A stretch of DNA of 28,144 nt from a virus, in IMG/VR virus record IMGVR_UViG_3300028925_011624, positions 1-28,144 of that record. One strand, given 5' to 3'. A model generated the notes under the pieces. That model did no database searches and was not told the origin of the DNA. It saw only the letters and a program-made list of their open reading frames with translations. The translations under genes were made by a program, and so were the position numbers. This document shows, in pieces, positions 1 through 11,064 of the stretch (the first letter of the stretch is position 1; each line of letters opens with the position of its first letter).

Positions 1-44
1 GAGCGAGCCACGTTTGGTGATGAGCAAACAAACCGAGCGAGGAG
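1..44 (+). repeat. Edge of a second TIGR-like 34-bp array
   Basis: The first bases hold block GAGCGAGCCA (1-10), 8 variable bases, block GATGAGCA (19-26), 8 variable bases, then a second degenerate GAGCGAGG (35-42). The block-to-block distance is exactly 34 bp. The blocks match those of the array at 6641-7289 (GAGCGAGCCA and GAAAAGCA when read on its minus strand), but lie in the opposite orientation. The next expected block is absent, so this is the 3' end of an array whose body lies outside the window. A 6-bp inverted repeat (ACTAGG 64-69, CCTAGT 78-83) follows; it has no T-run and is not a convincing terminator. Confidence 0.65.
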
Positions 45-134
45 ATGACTTGTGGCTACTGATACTAGGGGTGGGTTCCTAGTGGTGCTATAAAGTAGCG
101 ATGTACGGCATTCGATCATTGCAGTAGGGCTCTG

Positions 135-374
135 GTGGCTAGTTTGCCCTTATCTGCTTGTGTGCTGCTTCTTCTTTGCCCCGAACTTGAGTACATCCGG
201 ATCTTGGACTCGGAGCTATTCCGCAGGGCCGATTCTCTGTCAACTCAAGAGCCTCCAAAGGAAGTTGAAAGGGTTGAGGAGCCACGGGTGCTGCCCCCGA
301 TACCCAGGGAAAAGCCTCCCCGGCCTGTCGAGCCTCTAATTAACTACATTTTGCCGAACTTTAAGCTGGATTGA
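135..374 (+). CDS. Small proline-rich membrane-anchored protein, possibly Rz1-like
   Basis: An unrecognised 79-residue ORF starting at GTG, with AGGG about 7 nt upstream. Residues 4-15 are hydrophobic with two cysteines (LSAC at 6-9, LLLC at 12-15), a possible short lipoprotein or anchor segment. The second half is rich in proline and charge (EPPKE, PPIPREKPPRPVEP). Small outer-membrane spanins of the Rz1 type combine a lipobox with a proline-rich tail, so that role is possible, but the signal is unusually short. It is convergent with the EF-hand membrane gene at 380-724. An alternative start is TTG at 144. It could be a chance ORF; no minus-strand gene competes for the interval. Confidence 0.35.
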   Translation: MASLPLSACVLLLLCPELEYIRILDSELFRRADSLSTQEPPKEVERVEEPRVLPPIPREKPPRPVEPLINYILPNFKLD

Positions 375-379
375 ATCGA

Positions 380-724
380 TTATTTTTTTCGAGACATGAA
401 GGCAGCGGCCCCGAAGTAAGCTGAAACGACACCAGCCATGCCGATATAAAATAGGCTGAATAGGTCAGATAGGGCCTTAATCCGTGAATCCGGAAAGATT
501 GGCAGGAAGACCATGGCGGTAAAGACCAGCATGGCGATCATGGCAACCCAGGCCATCCTTCTCTGAGCATCCTGCTTCTCATGCATATCAAGGGCGGCTG
601 ACGCCACTAGTTCGCTGTCGGAGACAATCCCATCCCCATCAAGGTCCAATGGGTTGTACTTACTGCCGCTCTCTAATTTCTTCTGAACCATGGGGATACC
701 CGATAAAACCAAACTCATGGGCAT
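380..724 (-). CDS. EF-hand protein with two membrane segments (holin-like?)
   Basis: This 114-residue protein has a textbook EF-hand calcium loop (DLDGDGIVSDSE, residues 27-38), with Asp at loop positions 1, 3 and 5, Gly at 6 and Glu at 12. Two hydrophobic segments follow, near residues 59-76 (AWVAMIAMLVFTAMVFLP) and 87-109 (LFSLFYIGMAGVVSAYFGAA), and a basic end (SRKK). EF-hand plus transmembrane proteins of this size occur in marine phages. A holin or calcium-responsive membrane role is inference. The start is uncertain: Met1, Met3 and Met12 are all possible and none has a strong Shine-Dalgarno. It is transcribed divergently from the gene at 971. Confidence 0.75.
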   Translation of the reverse strand: MPMSLVLSGIPMVQKKLESGSKYNPLDLDGDGIVSDSELVASAALDMHEKQDAQRRMAWVAMIAMLVFTAMVFLPIFPDSRIKALSDLFSLFYIGMAGVVSAYFGAAAFMSRKK

Positions 725-864
725 TCTACGCTAATTGATGAAAATCGAAAAAAGCGTTTTGTTTAAATTTTTGAAAAAAATATTTTGCTTATGTTCAATG
801 ACTTATTTTGAGGACCAGCCCCAAACACGCGGAATCAGGCGGTTTCGGTCAATTTTAAAAATCG

Positions 865-931
865 GGTGTGGTATACTTAGTGTGCTACCTGTTCTTTGAC
901 ATTGTGAATATGAAACCGCGTTCGATGCGGG
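865..931 (+). promoter_or_regulatory. Promoter with boxA-like leader and hairpin
   Basis: An extended -10 (TGTGGTATACT, hexamer 872-877) has no clear -35. Downstream, TGTTCTTTGACA (890-901) matches 10 of 12 positions of the E. coli rrn boxA TGCTCTTTAACA, and a stem-loop follows (CCGCG 917-921, TGCGG 927-931, with one G-T pair). This leads to the + strand gene at 971. The boxA reading is inferred from similarity only; TTGACA at 896-901 could instead be a -35 box, but no good -10 lies 16-18 bp downstream. Confidence 0.45.
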
Positions 932-970
932 ACTTAGGAAAGTCGTGGGCCTCCAACCTTGGAGAAGTCT

Positions 971-1426
971 ATGACAAAGTCATTATTTAGCTCACTGCTA
1001 GGTGAGGCGCTTGGAGTTTCCAAGCCGAAGACAAAGAAAAAAGATATCTACGCGACAGCCAGAGCAAAGGCCAAGCGGATTGCCAAGAGGATCGGTGTCG
1101 AAATTGAGATTTGCCGGATAGGTCGGGACATCGACTACGACGTGTTTCCGTCAAAGGGCATTGAAGACCCCTTCGAGTACGGCAGACACATTTGTTACGA
1201 CTGGAACGAAGTGCTCGAAATGGTCGAGGTCTACGAGAAAATGGTGGTCGGAGTGAAAATAACCAAAGCTATGGCACGGTCGATTGCCAAAACCATCGAC
1301 AACGCCGGGAACCTCGACTGGCATGCGATCAGGGACCATGTAGACACAGCAACGTCAGGTGAACTCGACGCCTTCAAACTCGACATGATGACCGACTGGG
1401 TTGTCGAGGAGTGCGACAAGAAATAA
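971..1426 (+). CDS. Hypothetical phage protein, 151 aa
   Basis: I do not recognise a family. ATG at 971 is preceded by GGAG 7 nt upstream, which makes it a better start than the in-frame TTG at 959. The N-terminus is basic (KPKTKKK, then ARAKAKRIAKR near residues 28-40), suggesting nucleic-acid contact. The middle and end are acidic and Trp-rich, ending in DWVVEECDKK. A helical repeat-like stretch occupies about residues 95-140. It stands alone on the + strand behind a boxA-like leader, so it is probably expressed separately from the minus-strand genes. Its leader motif ACCTTGGAG recurs upstream of the minus-strand genes starting at 2964 and 5403, which suggests a shared translation signal. 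Confidence 0.75.
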   Translation: MTKSLFSSLLGEALGVSKPKTKKKDIYATARAKAKRIAKRIGVEIEICRIGRDIDYDVFPSKGIEDPFEYGRHICYDWNEVLEMVEVYEKMVVGVKITKAMARSIAKTIDNAGNLDWHAIRDHVDTATSGELDAFKLDMMTDWVVEECDKK

Positions 1427-1756
1427 TCAAGTAACAACAACCACGGCTCACGGCTTTCCTAATTCCTGTAAGCGGATTGAATTTTGTGGTGATTATGGGT
1501 GGGGGATACGCTACGCGGCTAAATCTGTGTCAACCCCACCCAGGGGGGTACGCAATAATAAATCACTTGACCCGACAGAAAGGCTAGGGTCTTAGGGTAC
1601 CTTGACCCCAAGCCCCAGCCCCTCGGTTGGATTAGAAAGTTAGTTGTTGGAACACAATCCAGAGTCCATAGCAGCAAACCAAAACACCGCATGGAATGTA
1701 GATCGACATTACCGTTCTGAATATAAAACGGTTGCGCCGTCTCCTGGCTCTACTGT
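1427..1756. other. Gene-poor spacer
   Basis: There is no convincing gene in these 330 bases between a + strand gene and the end of a minus-strand operon. It holds a short inverted repeat (ACCGTT 1711-1716, AACGGT 1727-1732) that may act as a weak bidirectional terminator. A C-rich stretch around 1600-1622 contains two TTGACC-like motifs nearby. I found no tRNA cloverleaf. Confidence 0.5.
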
Positions 1757-2110
1757 TCATGCTTCAACCTTCTGCTTGCTGTTATCGACGACGAGTCGAT
1801 CTTCCTCATCTGCATCTTCTAGCCAACTAACTAGGCCAAACTCACCAACACTTAATATGCCGATCAGTATCGGGATGTCGTAAGGATTTACCGGGCTACT
1901 GGACATATCCTCGCCGTCGTAGAATCTCCCTGCGTATCTCTCTTGCAATTCACGATCTTGCTTCCAGCGCCGCTGCCATTCAGCTTCGTGATTGAAATGT
2001 TCCGGAGACACCTTTGCGAACTTGCCAACCCTTCGGTTGATGTCGCGTGTCTGATGTTGGACCAGCGTCACACCAAGTCCTGTCGGCTGTATTAAAAATG
2101 TAACTTTCAT
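1757..2110 (-). CDS. Hypothetical phage protein, 117 aa
   Basis: No family is recognised. The start at 2110 is chosen because GGATAAGAAA directly precedes it, the same ribosome-binding arrangement as the upstream gene at 2581; an ATG four codons earlier (2122) is also possible. The N-terminus (KVTFLIQPTGLGVTLVQ) looks like two beta strands. The centre is charged and Trp/Arg/Glu-rich (residues 40-60). A hydrophobic stretch near residues 79-95 (IPILIGILSVGEFGLVSW) is followed by an acidic tail (EDADEEDR). It is the last gene of a three-gene set (2964 to 1757), each preceded by a GC-rich hairpin. Confidence 0.7.
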   Translation of the reverse strand: MKVTFLIQPTGLGVTLVQHQTRDINRRVGKFAKVSPEHFNHEAEWQRRWKQDRELQERYAGRFYDGEDMSSSPVNPYDIPILIGILSVGEFGLVSWLEDADEEDRLVVDNSKQKVEA

Positions 2111-2133
2111 TTTCTTATCCATTCTTAGTTAGT

Positions 2134-2158
2134 GGGGGCGAACACTGCGCCCGCCCCC
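2134..2158 (-). promoter_or_regulatory. 5'-leader RNA hairpin
   Basis: The minus-strand arms GGGGGCGGGC and GTTCGCCCCC pair over 10 bp, including G-U pairs, around a 5-nt loop. No T-run follows, so it is not a classic terminator. It sits 24 nt before the start at 2110 and matches the hairpin at 2606-2630 in stem length, loop length and position, with different inner base pairs. Confidence 0.6.
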
Positions 2159-2164
2159 GTTTCG

Positions 2165-2581
2165 TTAATCAGTAAGACTGTCGGAATAGGCTAGCCTAAG
2201 ATGACGGAACACGATTGCCTGAGCCGCGTCGAGTCCCAGGCCATTGCCGAGAACCTTTCCAGCGCCGCCCGCCATTTCCTCGAAGCCACTGCTCGCGACA
2301 ACCGAGGCCTTGTCCGCCTCGTCCACGATAATGTCGCCGACGCTCACGCTATGCATTTGGCCAACCGTTAAGACTTCGCCGCCCTCGTGATTGCCGAAGA
2401 CGAAAGCCTCGTCGAGGTTTCTTGCTGGGATTACCGCCACCGGGACGTACATGTCCAGGCGCTTTAGAGCGCCCTTCGACACGCTGCCCTCGGGCTGAAA
2501 GCCTCCCATCATTTCGGCGGCATCGTCTGCGTTCTCGCGGTAGTCGATCTGGAAGACTCGGTAAGTTTCTTTTTTCAGCAT
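2165..2581 (-). CDS. YodL-like phage protein
   Basis: This 138-residue protein starts at ATG 2581 behind AAGGGATAAGAAA. Its N-terminus (YRVFQIDYRENADDAAEMMGG) and the central pattern MHSVSVGDIIVDEADKASVVASSGFEEM resemble the YodL-like domain found in mobile-element and phage proteins, where an H-S-x-S-x-x-D-x-[IV]-V segment precedes an S-x-G-F-x-E segment. The molecular role of that family is not established. The C-terminus may extend it with a helix (LDAAQAIVFRHLRLAYSDSL). It is co-transcribed between the genes at 2964 and 1757. The YodL assignment is from pattern memory and only moderately certain; gene reality is more secure. Confidence 0.72.
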   Translation of the reverse strand: MLKKETYRVFQIDYRENADDAAEMMGGFQPEGSVSKGALKRLDMYVPVAVIPARNLDEAFVFGNHEGGEVLTVGQMHSVSVGDIIVDEADKASVVASSGFEEMAGGAGKVLGNGLGLDAAQAIVFRHLRLAYSDSLTD

Positions 2582-2605
2582 TTTCTTATCCCTTCTTGGT
2601 TTGGT

Positions 2606-2630
2606 GGGGGCCAGCACCTTGCCAGCCCCC
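2606..2630 (-). promoter_or_regulatory. 5'-leader RNA hairpin
   Basis: The minus-strand arms GGGGGCTGGC and GCTGGCCCCC pair over 10 bp (two G-U pairs) with a 5-nt loop AAGGT. It is not followed by a T-run, and lies 25 nt before the start at 2581. It is the structural twin of 2134-2158. Confidence 0.6.
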
Positions 2631-2640
2631 GGTTGATTGC

Positions 2641-2964
2641 TCAGTGAACAAACGTGGCGCGGAGCGTGTCGCAACTAACGCGATGACCCAGGACGGCAGC
2701 GCCCACACCCTTAACCGCGTGCGTTCCCTGGGGGAGGGTTCTTACCTCGACTTCGGAAAGTTTCGCCCGAGCCTCTGCCGCGACAGACGCTCTGTCGAGG
2801 AACTCAAGTTCCTCACGAATTTTCAAGGGAGCGTCCGCGATCAGGCCGTTGATGATCCCGGCACGTTTGCGCCGAGCGGCTGCGGCCTCGGCCTTATTCT
2901 CCAGCCAATCGAGGGTGAACTTGCCGAGGCGGGTATTCATTTTTAGGTTCCAGATATTAGCCAT
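2641..2964 (-). CDS. Hypothetical phage protein, 107 aa
   Basis: No family is recognised. ATG at 2964 has GGAGAAG 6 nt upstream inside an ACCTTGGAG leader shared with other genes. The N-terminal half is helical and rich in Ala, Arg, Lys and Glu (LENKAEAAAARRKRAGI, then APLKIREELEFLDRASVAAEARAKL), which suggests a small alpha-helical or coiled-coil protein. The C-terminus is more beta-like and ends TLRATFVH. It is the first gene of the transcript running towards 1757. A perfect 14-bp palindrome lies 22 nt before its start. Confidence 0.65.
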   Translation of the reverse strand: MANIWNLKMNTRLGKFTLDWLENKAEAAAARRKRAGIINGLIADAPLKIREELEFLDRASVAAEARAKLSEVEVRTLPQGTHAVKGVGAAVLGHRVSCDTLRATFVH

Positions 2965-2985
2965 TTGATCTTCTCCAAGGTTGCT

Positions 2986-2999
2986 GGGGTAGCTACCCC
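2986..2999 (-). promoter_or_regulatory. 5'-leader palindrome
   Basis: GGGGTAGCTACCCC is a perfect 14-bp palindrome located 22 nt before the start codon at 2964. It could be an RNA hairpin or a protein-binding site. Its position parallels the hairpins before the next two genes. Confidence 0.5.
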
Positions 3000-3112
3000 C
3001 GTTTGTCTCTAAGCTAGGCTTAGCTTATCGATCTACACACGACTTGTCTACTACTATTAATGCACCCAGATAAGGCCAGATCAGGCCAGGATAAGGGGGT
3101 TTAGAGGAGGGG

Positions 3113-3234
3113 TAGGAGGGCCCAGGGGCCAGAGCCCAAGACCCAAGGCCCAGGAACCGAACCCCAGACCCGACCCGACCCGACAGCATCGAACCCGACC
3201 CGACCCATCCCGACCCGACAGCCCGACCCGACAC
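3113..3234 (-). repeat. GGGTC-type tandem G-tract repeats
   Basis: On the minus strand this reads as runs of TCGGG and GGGTC pentamers, followed by GGGCC/GGGTCT-like G triplets. More than four GGG runs sit within 30 nt, so intramolecular G-quadruplex formation is possible. The tract lies immediately downstream of the terminator at 3235-3262. Similar tracts occur at 4350-4480 and 5579-5708. Confidence 0.7.
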
Positions 3235-3262
3235 AAAAAAAGGGCCCGCACGAGGCGAGCCC
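3235..3262 (-). terminator. Rho-independent terminator after the DUF932 gene
   Basis: On the minus strand, GGGCTCGC pairs with GCGGGCCC (8 bp, one G-U) around a 5-nt loop, followed by seven T. It lies 22 nt past the stop codon of the gene ending at 3284. Confidence 0.85.
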
Positions 3263-3283
3263 AATTTTCAGTGTGTGACCCGA

Positions 3284-4252
3284 CTACGCAGCGCGGGCCA
3301 TGTTTTGCAGGTTGGCAATCCAGACCACGGCGCGGTCCTGGCGACCCTCACCTAACGCGAGCGGGTCAGTGTTTTGCCGACGACGTACCGAAGGCATTGC
3401 TTCCGCTGTATTGCGTGGCGTTGACCATGCGGTTACAGCCGAAACGAGGGACCATAGAGTCTGACCGCGATCTTCCGACTCTTGTTCGAACTGCGACATA
3501 AGCAACTCAAGTTCGTTTCGAGGCGTCTGGAACACTGGCGAGCGTTTGTCCTCTTTCGCGTGCTCTTTTACCGCCTTGAGACCCTTTAGCAATTCGCGAG
3601 CGGTCTTCGCCGTGATCTTCGTGTCCGCCCATTTCCGGATGATATCGGCCTGCTGTTGGGCCTCCACCATCGCGGTGGCAATTTGATCGGGCGATACCCG
3701 GAACATGGTGTCTTCGGCGTGGCGGGTATGTTTCGCCTTAAAAACTTCGGCCAAACTGTTAAAGATCATCCCATTGTCACAGAAGTGATCGAACATCGCG
3801 ACCGCAACACTTGTGCCGGTAGAATTGTCGTAACTATTCCGAAGGAGAATCTCAAGCGATACCTTGGTCTCATGGTGTTTGCCGAGTTGACGAATACTAA
3901 AGCAAAGATCCTTCAGAACGTAACGGACACTCCAGCGCCCGCCGCTACGTCCGCCTTGGGTCGGGATAATATCCAGTTCACCATGGTATCCACCCTCGCG
4001 GATAGAGCCCTCCATCATGTCATGCGCGACCCGATTTTGGATCACCTTGTAACTAGGCGACACGGTGCCGACGCATTGGGCAGCGTCAAACAATCCTACG
4101 TGGGAAGCTTTGTTGCCCTGACCGTCGAATAGCTCCCGGCGATCAATTGGAGCGACAAAACGCGCCATGTTATCCGGGTACTGGTTCAGAACCGGGAGGC
4201 GCATGGTGGGGGCGGTGGAGGTCCAAGGTGATAGTGCTACTACGTTGGTCAT
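3284..4252 (-). CDS. DUF932 family protein
   Basis: This 322-residue protein belongs, by overall pattern, to DUF932 (YfjQ/YubP-like; phage and plasmid proteins of unknown function). The family segment with a conserved S-x-x-Y-x-x-x-Q-N is visible as VGTVSPSYKVIQN near residues 50-62, followed by a gymnast of beta-rich sequence (GRWSVRYVLKD, then TKVSLEILLRNSYDNST) and a helical C-terminal region. The C-terminus (VWIANLQNMARAA) is typical. ATG 4252 is chosen over the upstream ATG at 4315 because AAGGA lies 8 nt before it and the preceding residues are not family-like. It is a single-gene unit, bounded by a leader hairpin (4278-4290) and a terminator (3235-3262). DUF932 proteins have been linked to plasmid transfer and recombination contexts, but no biochemical role is claimed here. 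Confidence 0.9.
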   Translation of the reverse strand: MTNVVALSPWTSTAPTMRLPVLNQYPDNMARFVAPIDRRELFDGQGNKASHVGLFDAAQCVGTVSPSYKVIQNRVAHDMMEGSIREGGYHGELDIIPTQGGRSGGRWSVRYVLKDLCFSIRQLGKHHETKVSLEILLRNSYDNSTGTSVAVAMFDHFCDNGMIFNSLAEVFKAKHTRHAEDTMFRVSPDQIATAMVEAQQQADIIRKWADTKITAKTARELLKGLKAVKEHAKEDKRSPVFQTPRNELELLMSQFEQESEDRGQTLWSLVSAVTAWSTPRNTAEAMPSVRRRQNTDPLALGEGRQDRAVVWIANLQNMARAA

Positions 4253-4277
4253 TTTCGGTATCCTTTTATGTCGTGCC

Positions 4278-4290
4278 GGGCATATCGCCC
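4278..4290 (-). promoter_or_regulatory. 5'-leader hairpin before the DUF932 gene
   Basis: A GGGC/GCCC stem with a 5-nt loop lies 26 nt before the start codon at 4252. The stem is only 4 bp, so this is weak alone; its position matches the leader hairpins near 2134, 2606 and 2986. Confidence 0.35.
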
Positions 4291-4349
4291 ACCCTGATAA
4301 TAACACCATCCCCACACGATAAGCAACATATTCTAGCTAGAAAATAACG

Positions 4350-4480
4350 CACACTTCCAGGCCCAGGCCCATGCCCATACCCACCATGCCCACGAACCCC
4401 CATATGCCCTACCGCATGGGACCAAGTGCCCTACCAAGCCCCGACCCGACTCCCGACCCGACCCGACTATTATCCCGACC
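4350..4480 (-). repeat. G-tract repeats downstream of a terminator
   Basis: The minus strand contains TCGGG/GGGTC pentamers (about 4433-4480), then spaced G triplets of the GGGCAT and GGGCCT kind (about 4350-4425). The arrangement repeats that at 3113-3234: terminator, then GGGTC pentamers, then GGGCC-type triplets. Confidence 0.65.
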
Positions 4481-4509
4481 AAAAAAAAAGGCCCCGACTA
4501 AGCGAGGCC
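4481..4509 (-). terminator. Rho-independent terminator after the GP88 operon
   Basis: On the minus strand, GGCCTCG pairs with CGGGGCC (7 bp, one G-U) around a 6-nt loop, followed by nine T. It lies just past the stop codon at 4532 and ends the GP88-like two-gene unit. Confidence 0.85.
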
Positions 4510-4531
4510 CCGACTCCCGACTCCGTAGTCG

Positions 4532-4771
4532 CTATAGGAACGTATAGTCATCGTCATGACGTAATAGGACGACTTCGATTCTGTGATCGACTCCGCCTAC
4601 ATGGCGATAGTTAACCGGGTCGTCAGTTTCTTCCGTATCGAATCCTTCCGTTTGAATCCAGCGCATGAAAAGAGACTTCGCGCTTGCACGGGCCTCGCTT
4701 TCTGTCGCGAAAACTTGCGCGTTGCCTTGCCGCTCACCATCCTTGAACAGAAGCATAGGTTTGAATCCCAT
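4532..4771 (-). CDS. Small conserved phage protein, 79 aa
   Basis: This 79-residue protein has the pattern GFKPMLLFKDGE, GNAQVFATESEARASAKSLF and TDDPVNYR, which recurs in short proteins of many phages and related elements. Its function is unknown to me. The predicted fold mixes short beta strands with one helix. The start ATG overlaps the stop of the upstream GP88-like gene (TAATG), so the two are translationally coupled. It is the last gene before the terminator at 4481-4509. Confidence 0.85.
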   Translation of the reverse strand: MGFKPMLLFKDGERQGNAQVFATESEARASAKSLFMRWIQTEGFDTEETDDPVNYRHVGGVDHRIEVVLLRHDDDYTFL

Positions 4772-5578: not shown

Positions 5579-5708
5579 GAACCCGACCCCGACAACCCGA
5601 CCCCGACTGAAAAACCCGACCCCGACCCCGACACATCCCACCAGGGGGGCAAAAGTGTAGACCCGACCACCCCGACAACCGCAGTAACCCGCCATTCCCG
5701 ACCCGACT
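5579..5708 (-). repeat. GGGTC/GGGGTC tandem G-tract repeats
   Basis: The minus strand has many GGGTC and GGGGTC units in two clusters, about 5579-5632 and 5660-5708. This third tract is not directly next to a recognisable terminator. It ends about 20 bp from the parS site. Confidence 0.65.
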
Positions 5709-6398: not shown

Positions 6399-6635
6399 TT
6401 ACTTTCCTTTCTTCCTTGATTTTTCCAAATGCCGGTTATCGCTTGCCCTAATTGCCGTCAAATTGGCTGTCTCTCGGGCAAGACCGTACTCCAAGATCTC
6501 GATCCTTCGGTCTGCATCCTCCTGCCTCAGTTTACCAGATTTCACTAGCTCTGGGTAAAGTCTGCGACGGGCCTCTAAGTCTCGCTCGTACTCTTGGACA
6601 ATCTCGCTAAGAGTAACTGGATATGGGTTTCTCAA
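6399..6635 (-). CDS. Small phage protein, 78 aa, at the 3' end of the array
   Basis: The central pattern LEARRRLYPELVKSGKLRQEDADRRIEILEYGLA matches a very common class of short phage proteins of unknown function, usually found near replication genes. It is strongly helical and basic at its end (SRKKGK). The start is uncertain: there is no ATG; TTG at 6635 lies just outside the repeat array, while TTG at 6653 lies inside its last unit. For the first, the terminal repeat block (GGAGCGAG) would supply the purine-rich ribosome-binding sequence, which is an unusual arrangement. It is probably translated from the same transcript as the array. Confidence 0.78.
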   Translation of the reverse strand: MRNPYPVTLSEIVQEYERDLEARRRLYPELVKSGKLRQEDADRRIEILEYGLARETANLTAIRASDNRHLEKSRKKGK

Positions 6636-6640
6636 TATTT

Positions 6641-7289
6641 TGACTCGCTCCAATTTGTTGCTTTTCCGCCTTGTTGGCTCGTTCCGGTTCTATGCTTTTT
6701 ACGACTGATGGCTCGCTCCGGCTTTGTGCTTTTCGGTTGGCGTGGCTCGCTCCGATTGGTTGCTTTTCCGACAATTTGGCTCGTTCCGGTTCTGTGCTTT
6801 TCAGGACTGATGGCTCGTTCGCGGGGCTTGCTGATCTGCTTGTTTGGCTCGCTCTGATTCGTTGTTTTTCCGATCATGTGGCTCGCTCTCAAACGCTGCT
6901 TTTCTACTGATGTGGCTCGCTCCACAGAGATGCTTTTCGATAACTTTGGCTCGCTCCGCCTTGGGTGCTTTTCAGATAGCTTGACTCGCTCTCGCAACAT
7001 GCTTCTCTCTTTACGTGGCTCGCTCACAGGGCTTGCTGATCCTCTTATTAGGCTCGCTCCGTTTTGGGTGCTTTTCCCTCTACGTGGCTCGATCTTTGAA
7101 ACTGCTCTTCATTGGGTATGGCTCACTCGGGACTTGTGCTTTTCCGTTATTCTGGCTCGTTTCGCACAATTGCTTTTCAGCGTTCATGGCTCGCTCCGGG
7201 TGTGTGCTTGTCTATTCACTCGGCTCGCTCTCTTTTTGTGCTCTTCAAACAAAGTGGCTCAATTCGGTATCAATGCTTTTCGCTCATCC
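6641..7289 (-). repeat. TIGR-like array, 19 units of 34 bp
   Basis: There are 19 consecutive units; 16 of the 18 start-to-start distances are 34 bp and two are 35. On the minus strand each unit reads GAAAAGCA, a variable segment of 8-9 nt (A), GAGCGAGCCA, and a variable segment of 8 nt (B). Both blocks are well conserved; the segments differ from unit to unit, except for near-duplicates (units 2 and 5). Units 6 and 12 carry GATCAGCA in place of GAAAAGCA. The period is not a multiple of three, so it cannot encode a repeated protein. The two-spacer layout matches Tandem Interspaced Guide RNA arrays of TIGR-Tas systems. It starts 4 nt past the stop of the DnaA-like gene and lies in the same direction as the candidate TasA gene at 11064-10207, so it may be read through from the early operon. 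Confidence 0.82.
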
Positions 7290-7293
7290 TGAA

Positions 7294-7824
7294 TTAAATA
7301 AAAGCCGAGGTGGATCTGTTAACCCCGTATTTGCAGGGCGCACACAGTCTGTTGTGTATGCCCTCAGACTCAAACAAACCAGAACAGTGAAGGCAGGTTC
7401 TGGTGGTCATCACCGGTTTCGGGTGCAAAGGCCCCAATGGCCTTCTCTTTCTTGCCTTCTTCCGAGCCTTCCACTCATGGGTTTCTTCTTTAGTAAGGGG
7501 TCTAAGGTTCAATGATCCGTAAGAATGAACGCTGCTAAATTCTCTCATCAGTATTTGGGCGTCCCTGAATGTTTCTGAGTTAACGTCTTTCATGCGCTCG
7601 TTAACCGCTCTTTTGGCATGCAAAGCGGTCGTATGGTCCCGATTAAAGTGTTCAGCAATTGAAGCAATTGAGGCTTTCGTTAGCTTCGATGACATCCAAA
7701 TTGCCAATTGACGCGGCCACGCTATCTCGCGAGACCTTTGATCCCCCAGCATCACAGGCATCGAAATGTCATAATGAAGACACACCGCCCGTTGAATTTT
7801 CTTCAGGGTGGCAAGTTCACTCAT
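7294..7824 (-). CDS. DnaA domain IV-like DNA-binding protein with zinc ribbon
   Basis: This 176-residue protein lacks the AAA+ domain of DnaA but carries a domain IV-like helix-turn-helix (about residues 10-80), with PRQLAIWMSSKLTKASIASIAEHF followed by RDHTTALHA, close to the DnaA signature [GN]RDHTTVxxA. A basic linker follows (RKKARKRR), then a zinc-ribbon-like end with two CxxC pairs (C144/C147 and C161/C164, in CLHCSGLFESEGIHNRLCAPC). It probably binds DnaA-box-like sites for replication control or transcription; this is inference. Start ATG 7824 overlaps the stop of the previous gene (ATGAGTGA); upstream in-frame ATGs would overlap it more. Its stop is 4 nt from the array. Confidence 0.85.
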   Translation of the reverse strand: MSELATLKKIQRAVCLHYDISMPVMLGDQRSREIAWPRQLAIWMSSKLTKASIASIAEHFNRDHTTALHAKRAVNERMKDVNSETFRDAQILMREFSSVHSYGSLNLRPLTKEETHEWKARKKARKRRPLGPLHPKPVMTTRTCLHCSGLFESEGIHNRLCAPCKYGVNRSTSAFI

Positions 7825-8068
7825 CAGTTTCATCCATCGTGTAGGGGCCATCGTCCCCATCGTCGATAATCTTCTGATCCAAACCACCTTGAACCGGCAC
7901 CTCCTTACGGTGGCCCCCGGAATCAGGATAAGCCGACCAACAGACTCGATCTTTAGCTAAATACTTAACTCTGCCCTCTTCCCCGCACTCACATTGCGCG
8001 ATAATTTCGTCGGAATTCTCATCGTAGCCAATGCGATTTTTGAAATAACAGGTGTGATTACGTTTCAA
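7817..8068 (-). CDS. Small Cys-containing phage protein, 83 aa
   Basis: An unrecognised 83-residue protein beginning at TTG 8068, with GGAGG 7 nt upstream. It has CYF near the start, then CECGEEGRVKYL at residues 26-37 and a later Cys (VCWSAYP). The order C...C-x-C...C suggests a small metal-binding ribbon. The C-terminus is highly acidic (DDGDDGPYTMDETDE). It overlaps its neighbours by 11 and 8 nt, as usual in this compact operon. Confidence 0.75.
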   Translation of the reverse strand: MKRNHTCYFKNRIGYDENSDEIIAQCECGEEGRVKYLAKDRVCWSAYPDSGGHRKEVPVQGGLDQKIIDDGDDGPYTMDETDE

Positions 8069-9998: not shown

Positions 9999-10207
9999 TA
10001 GGTCAACGACCCAGCATTGGTGACTTGCGTTTCTATTTCAAGTTCGTTGAACTCGTCTTGAACGACCGCAAGAAGGTCTTTGTACTCAAGCTCCAGCATC
10101 TTCGGATCGCTATGCAGCAAACCGGGCAAGATCCGCAGGAACCTATCAACGGCTTCATTAGATTTATCGCCCCATAAATGCGAAGGAATAGAAATCGGGT
10201 AACCCAT
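9998..10207 (-). CDS. Hypothetical small protein directly after candidate TasA
   Basis: This unrecognised 69-residue protein starts at ATG 10207, overlapping the stop of the candidate TasA gene by 1 nt (TAATG), and its stop overlaps the next start in the same way. It begins GYPISIPSHLWGD and is helical and acidic afterwards (LLAVVQDEFNELEIETQ). Tight coupling makes it a candidate accessory protein of the Tas module, but this is only positional inference. Confidence 0.7.
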   Translation of the reverse strand: MGYPISIPSHLWGDKSNEAVDRFLRILPGLLHSDPKMLELEYKDLLAVVQDEFNELEIETQVTNAGSLT

Positions 10208-11064
10208 TACGATATCTCCGGGCCAGGGGCCTCGATGATGTGTGCATGCTTCAAAATTGCAACGGGGTAGGGATCTGCCGGTGCTTTGCCGTATTCCCAT
10301 TCATACCAACGATAATGCAGGTGACTAAGCAAAATCTTAGCCGCATACCGTCGAGCACGAGCGTGAAGATGGGCTGGGGGCAATTTGCCAATTGAGTAGT
10401 GAGAGTAAGCTACAGTCGTTTTCCCAACAGCCTTGGCCTTATCCAAAGCGACATCCTTGAACTCCATACTTTCGTTGGCTGCTTCAAGGCGGTCCCTTTC
10501 CTTCCTGAATATCTTACCGTAAAAAGATTTTTCGCTACCTTGAGTCTTCACGAAAGATTCGCCAGCCTTAAACGCAACGAGCGTTTTTAGCTTCGCGTTC
10601 CAGGGCCGCTTCTTACCCTTCTCCCATTTCTTCTCGGGGTTCATCCCGGCGAACGACCAGAAGTGTCCGTAGGTCGGAGCCTTTCTGATGTCGAGATGCG
10701 AAAGAAGCCCCGCAGCAATGACCGGGCCAATACCGTGCTGAGCTAATAGCCAACGTCCAACAGGGTGATTATCGGCGTACACTTGAAGGCCAACCTTGGC
10801 GTTTTTTTCAAGCTGCTCGTAATTGTCACGAGTCAAAGAGAGAACGTGAACAGGCTCTCCATCTTTCGTCATTGACCGGATTTGAGCGCTAGTCGCAATC
10901 CGGTTGTCTTGAACAGTATAATACTGGTCAACAAGAAACCGTGCCTCTTGCTCACCAAGCGACTGAAACGCAATACGCTGATCTTTAGTAAGTCGCTTGA
11001 CGCTTTCAATCGTAAAGTCCTTCTCGACGGCAAGATCGTCAACGGCGCTAGACTGGGCTTCCAT
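10207..11064 (-). CDS. tasA: Candidate TasA: Nop/IS110-like RNA-binding protein
   Basis: This 285-residue protein has a Transposase_20/Nop-like core. A helix-hairpin-helix reads GIGPVIAAGLLSHLDI (111-126), followed by HFWSFAGMNP (134-143), a basic segment GKKRPWNAKLK (150-160), SFYGKIFRKERDR (180-192) and a basic C-terminal helix PPAHLHARARRYAAKILLSHL (229-249). This is the region IS110-family transposases use beside their DEDD catalytic domain, but no such N-terminal domain is present and no HNH or RuvC motifs are visible, so it is not a complete transposase. Related Nop-like proteins are the effectors of TIGR-Tas, and forms lacking a nuclease are TasA. The downstream TIGR-like array supports that. 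An excellent AAAGGAGG precedes ATG 11064. Its symbol is provisional. Confidence 0.72.
   Translation of the reverse strand: MEAQSSAVDDLAVEKDFTIESVKRLTKDQRIAFQSLGEQEARFLVDQYYTVQDNRIATSAQIRSMTKDGEPVHVLSLTRDNYEQLEKNAKVGLQVYADNHPVGRWLLAQHGIGPVIAAGLLSHLDIRKAPTYGHFWSFAGMNPEKKWEKGKKRPWNAKLKTLVAFKAGESFVKTQGSEKSFYGKIFRKERDRLEAANESMEFKDVALDKAKAVGKTTVAYSHYSIGKLPPAHLHARARRYAAKILLSHLHYRWYEWEYGKAPADPYPVAILKHAHIIEAPGPEIS

Follow-up and report, generated by a model that had tools for sequence, protein, structure and literature searches.

The viral record IMGVR_UViG_3300028925_011624 of IMG/VR (positions 1 to 28,144; this whole stretch of 28,144 nucleotides (nt) is called the window below) carries on its minus strand a tandem array of two alternating short repeats, here called array 1, which very probably belongs to a phage TIGR-TasA system. 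The first, GC-rich repeat, GAGCGAGCCA (10 nt), fits the published 'edge', and the second, A-rich repeat, GAAAAGCA (8 nt), fits the published 'loop'. A unit consists of the edge, spacer A (8 nt), the loop and spacer B (8-9 nt), the variable segments between the alternating repeats being 8 nt and sometimes 9 nt long. Upstream of the array lies a gene for a Tas protein, and the last unit of a second array (array 2) occupies the left edge of the window. Neither the effector gene, 10207-11064 (-), nor the remnant at 1-45 appeared in an earlier note on this DNA, which was confined to array 1.

The array, its borders and its effector

The earlier note had described 19 tandem units of two alternating repeats and variable segments of 8-9 nt, and we could locate the starts of all 19 loops on the minus strand: 7281, 7246, 7212, 7178, 7144, 7110, 7076, 7041, 7007 and 6973 for the first ten, followed by 6938, 6904, 6870, 6836, 6802, 6768, 6734, 6700 and 6666. 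Its period of 34 nt was found again, but steps of 35 nt occur at three places (7281-7246, 7076-7041 and 6973-6938) and not at two. A de novo detector of 30-42-nt dual periodicity called array 1 as the sole region in the whole window. It called nothing in 13 control loci that lack a tas gene, nor in 39 first-order Markov shuffles.

The earlier note had put the start of the array 4 nt past a stop codon; with these 4 nt as a truncated edge, the array directly follows the stop: on the minus strand, the stop codon (7294-7296) of the gene at 7294-7887 is followed by TTCA and then by the first spacer. Other arrays in the window's clade start alike, with ..AGTCA or ..TCA, 8 nt and the loop. The array ends beside the next gene, position 6641 adjoining, or overlapping the start of, the open reading frame (ORF) 6399-6653 (-), whose start is probably the TTG at 6635-6633. 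The GGAG at the array end might serve as the ribosome-binding site of this gene. The 3' end is a near-full edge, unlike the 3'-truncated end of array 2.

Table 1. Coordinates of the arrays, repeats and genes considered here (window positions)
Feature	Position	Strand	Description
TIGR array 1	6641..7293	-	19 predicted tigRNA units
First edge repeat of array 1 (TTCA)	7290..7293	-	5'-truncated; directly after stop codon of upstream gene
Last edge repeat of array 1, GAGCGAGTCA	6641..6650	-	contains GGAG together with preceding G
tasA	10207..11064	-	Nop-domain Tas protein, 285 amino acids; all-helical model, without nuclease domain
Gene directly upstream of array 1	7294..7887	-	DnaA C-terminal (domain IV, DnaA-box-binding) helix-turn-helix
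Gene directly downstream of array 1	6399..6653	-	84 amino acids; phrog_19667, unknown function
Last unit of array 2	1..45	+	GAGCGAGCCA CGTTTGGT GATGAGCA AACAAACC GAGCGAG (3'-truncated edge)

The gene tasA is on the same strand as array 1, 2.9 kb upstream. Its product scores 191.6 bits on the NCBIfam model NF052498 TIGR_Tas_endo (cut-off 100, E = 1.6e-56). A profile built from 38 relatives matched TasR (9mty, 7e-24), TasH (1e-13) and IS621 (1e-4). The AlphaFold model (mean pLDDT 88) contains helices only, and its best matches among solved structures were TasH and TasR, then IS621 and ISCro4. No HNH or RuvC match was found in the 285 amino acids. Faure et al. (PMC12045711) give the name TasA to a Tas protein without nuclease; therefore, the window protein is TasA. 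With a curated TIGR-Tas family protein upstream on the same strand, the earlier interpretation as a TIGR array was supported, and array 2 strengthens it further. Comparison with the published definition gave the same picture: array 1 agrees with it in the lengths of repeats and spacers, in the 5' truncation of the first edge and in the ends that the repeats share (PMC12045711).

In the window, edge and loop alike have GA at the start and CA at the end. In three relatives (L095, L097 and L102) both repeats end in CCG, which indicates that the ends of edge and loop change together. Most TasA relatives have a loop of 10 nt and a unit of 36 nt; in the window's clade the loop is shortened to 8 nt and the unit is 34 nt long. 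Spacers A and B show no relation to each other, and the same position-specific base bias was found in both. An Rfam search gave no match.

The cluster around tasA includes genes for an SSB, an Erf-like annealing protein, an exonuclease and a resolvase. By eye, a DnaA-like ORF before the array was also seen in a diverged relative, G008 (L042, 905-1321, minus strand). Clusters of the short repeat CCCGAC/CCCCGAC, mostly intergenic, were noticed in the window at 3167-3233, 4440-4467, 4509-4524 and 5580-5680.

Relatives, spacer turnover and the phase of the unit

An alignment search gave 180 TasA-encoding viral contigs, of which 80 were kept. Of 78 loci retrieved around TasA relatives, almost all had a dual-repeat array nearby, either within a few hundred bases of tasA or, as in the window's clade, at a distance of a few kilobases. 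No TasA relatives were found in plasmids, and only one was found among sequenced phages, in Microcystis phage Mvi-JY20. Those in bacterial genomes include proviruses of the named strains Acidobacteriaceae bacterium KBS 96 and Halomonas sp. NO4. In Mvi-JY20 (PP438412.1, L009 5893-6950), TasA, annotated as hypothetical, directly precedes a TIGR array in which about nine units have the repeats ACGAAACCCA and ATGCGAGCCA, and a terminator is visible after the array. As a sequenced phage with a named host, Mvi-JY20 could serve as a model.

Array 2 is also present in L011, L012 and L015. Contig L015 is 99.9% identical to positions 1-4595 of the window and has seven units in this array; therefore, the window contig broke inside array 2. 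The two arrays of the phage are convergent and about 6.6 kb apart, and array 2 would provide further guides to the same TasA.

Array 1 keeps the same borders among relatives while its interior differs, with spacers lost, gained, shuffled and mutated. The number of units is 19 for the window, 13 for L007, 15 for L020 and nine or more for L011, where the flanks of the array are about 92% identical to those of the window. Spacers common to relatives often carry one or two substitutions (e.g. AATAAGAG, AAAAAGAG, GATATGAG). Conservation of the variable segments at every position in related phages, which the earlier note had set against a guide array, is thus not what we observed.

We used two comparative tests to define the phase of the unit. 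In the window's clade, 46 spacer pairs stayed intact across the loop only, and five did so across the edge only; the corresponding counts in the wider family were 239 and 37 (the pairs are not independent). As the spacers flanking a loop stay together through rearrangements, the breakpoints fall in the edges. The second test concerned the edges of 66 non-redundant arrays. Position 8 of the upstream edge could form a Watson-Crick pair with position 3 of the next edge in 90.0% of cases. Comparatively, the value was 76.3% inside one edge and at most 83.3% over 500 order shuffles. Joint changes numbered 40 at edge positions 3-8 (7.1 expected) and 22 at positions 4-7 (1.4 expected). This covariation indicates that, across the family, the covarying halves of consecutive edges are the two ends of one tigRNA. 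Taken together, spacer linkage and family-wide end covariation identify the unit as edge-A-loop-B-edge.

The discoverers of TIGR systems called the mode of array change and the natural targets open (PMC12045711). The window's phage clade has several related arrays at fixed genomic positions. In these arrays, whole units from edge to edge behave as modules that are lost and shuffled, and spacers also mutate at single positions.

Possible function and targets of the guides

Judging from its orientation, array 1 would be part of the transcript of the leftward operon to which tasA also belongs. The transcript would be cut within the edge repeats, between GAGCG and AGCCA, and the predicted products are tigRNAs of about 34 nt with the structure AGCCA-A(8)-GAAAAGCA-B(8)-GAGCG. 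One tigRNA would be bound per TasA dimer, and, by homology to TasR and TasH, A and B would pair with opposite strands of one DNA target of about 16 bp. Because TasA has no nuclease, the complex would leave the target uncut and instead prevent its transcription or replication. The most likely use would be the silencing of competing mobile elements within the same cell.

Targets were searched in the geometry of spacer A followed by the reverse complement of spacer B, A+rc(B), which was derived from published cut sites. The host genomes scanned were those of two lysogens, KBS 96 and Halomonas sp. NO4. In KBS 96 (G064; L182 and L195-L199), the TasA provirus has a six-unit array, adjoins tRNA-Phe and has, by eye, integrase-, portal-, capsid- and tape-measure-like genes. 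Unit 2 of its array had a single exact 16/16 match in the host genome, at 6,329,962 with gap 0; for 6.7 Mb of that GC content, chance alone would give about 0.014 exact matches, all six units taken together. The matched site is close to the beginning of a gene of the excisionase helix-turn-helix type. This gene belongs to an integrated element of 12.8 kb, bounded by a 27-bp repeat at tRNA-Glu. Genes for integrase, repressor, head maturation protease and major head protein are present in the element, which is therefore a satellite-like island or a small provirus. Unit 5 matched at 14/16 in the same early operon, an excisionase/replication operon, again with gap 0; its two mismatches both fall in spacer A, at the outer end (about 0.03 expected by chance, an arithmetic estimate for five units at gap 0). 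When 30 mismatched A-B pairings were compared with the island, one reached two mismatches and none had fewer. The joint chance of the two matches is of the order of 5e-4, a post hoc value obtained in a relative of the window phage. A one-mismatch match of unit 4 was rejected as a target, being in a housekeeping region and at chance level. In Halomonas sp. NO4, the TasA provirus (L183) has a short array upstream of tasA, which is the same array as in L073.

The island match is suggestive of the purpose of TIGR-TasA systems, and it makes the question of TasA targets directly testable by experiment. We tentatively propose that the window's system is used against rival mobile elements, with chances that we put slightly under even. 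The more general proposal is a little more speculative: TIGR-TasA systems of temperate phages might be libraries of guides by which rival integrative elements are silenced without a nuclease. In that case the KBS 96 island, hit by two guides of the TasA provirus, would be a natural target seen in a sequenced lysogen, and the two arrays of the window would serve this purpose in a different phage lineage.

Several observations weigh against the explanation as a whole, beginning with the assignment to TIGR-TasA. The period of 34 instead of 36 nt and the 8-nt loop depart from most relatives. The 2.9 kb between tasA and array 1 hold several genes, and no rho-independent terminator, which is typical of TIGR-Tas but not obligatory, was predicted after array 1. 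In the window's clade alone (70 mates), the pairing between consecutive edges showed no lag effect: Watson-Crick pairs made up 48.6%, or 85.7% with G-U pairs, the same as at other lags. The end pairing is therefore a result for the family as a whole. As for the targets, the paired A/B search that the earlier note had suggested revealed none for the window's guides in kin phage DNA or IMG/VR. When 780 spacer pairs were compared with 2.0 Mb of TasA-phage DNA, nothing was found beyond shuffled pairs. Exact IMG/VR scans with three conserved window guides found 12, 21 and 15 stretches, which is the order expected by chance. The island match comes from one lysogen and is post hoc, and three guides of Halomonas sp. 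NO4 had no host match at one mismatch or fewer. Two of these phages (contigs L212 and L228/L239) had, besides the exact match, a one-mismatch match to a second guide of the window, which is not clearly above chance. Pattern matches in L016, L018 and L019 were dismissed as chance.

A different use was also considered. The guides might be directed at the genome of the phage itself or at the chromosome of its host, with TasA as an RNA-guided repressor or a DNA-bending aid. A Tas protein without nuclease would suit such a role, Faure et al. name regulation or help to integrases among the options (PMC12045711), and array 1 adjoins a gene with a DnaA-type DNA-binding domain. However, A+rc(B) sites were not in excess in the window or in kin phages, the fast turnover of spacers is unexpected for guides to conserved self sites, and the sole good match found was in another mobile element. 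We regard this use as unlikely.

It is quite improbable that the array is degenerate or dead and drifting without function. Substitutions in many repeats of array 1 (AATTGAGCCA, AAACGAGCCA, GATCAGCA), the relaxed end pairing of edges in the window's clade and the point changes in shared spacers could be read in that way. However, the tasA frame is intact, with 95% identity in relatives, and both repeats are kept in 19 of the 19 units at near-constant spacing. Relatives of 70-92% DNA identity have arrays at the same positions, and A-B pairs stay together through rearrangements. A protein-coding or structural minisatellite is hardly credible: both strands do have open frames that run through parts of the array, but the 34-nt period, which the earlier note had taken to rule out a repeated protein, changes the frame at every unit. 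In addition, related phages have other segments in place of the variable ones, and repeats of this type stand beside Tas genes in dozens of phages, with a Tas protein present here too.

Comparison with known systems

Two other classes of elements were rejected. CRISPR arrays have repeats of 25-36 nt and long single spacers, compared with repeats of 8-10 nt and spacers of 8 nt in the window. No Cas effector was found in the ten window proteins scanned, the only match being a weak one of Cas1g to an exonuclease-like gene. The IS110/IS621 bridge-RNA transposases share the RNA-binding fold of the window TasA, but the latter has no DEDD catalytic domain and scores 22 on the NCBIfam IS110 model (cut-off 140), so an IS110 transposon was excluded.

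Within the TIGR-Tas family, TasR (PDB 9mty) has the Nop fold and is the best sequence match to the window protein. However, TasR has a RuvC nuclease, repeats of the form UG...CCA and 9-nt spacers, and the window TasA has no nuclease. TIGR-TasH of Salicola phage CGphi29 is, like the window's, a phage system with 16 nt of spacer per tigRNA (8+8), and among solved structures those of TasH come closest to the TasA model; it differs in its HNH nuclease, which the window TasA does not have.

The closest likeness is to the TIGR-TasA dual-repeat systems, such as FpTIGR of Flavonifractor plautii (PMC12045711), with a solo Nop-domain protein and a phage location. Published TIGR-TasA arrays also have two alternating short repeats, two short spacers per unit and truncated edges at the array borders. 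Published TIGR repeats are 8-12 nt long with spacers of about 9 nt, compared with repeats of 10 and 8 nt and spacers of 8 nt in the window, and published tigRNAs have 36 nt (PMC12045711), compared with a 34-nt unit with an 8-nt loop. In addition, the window array is 2.9 kb from tasA, inside an operon and without its own terminator, and there are two convergent arrays. The TIGR-Tas family itself is already known, having been discovered recently; what is new here is a TIGR-TasA system with a short 34-nt unit and with the array placed apart from tasA within the operon.
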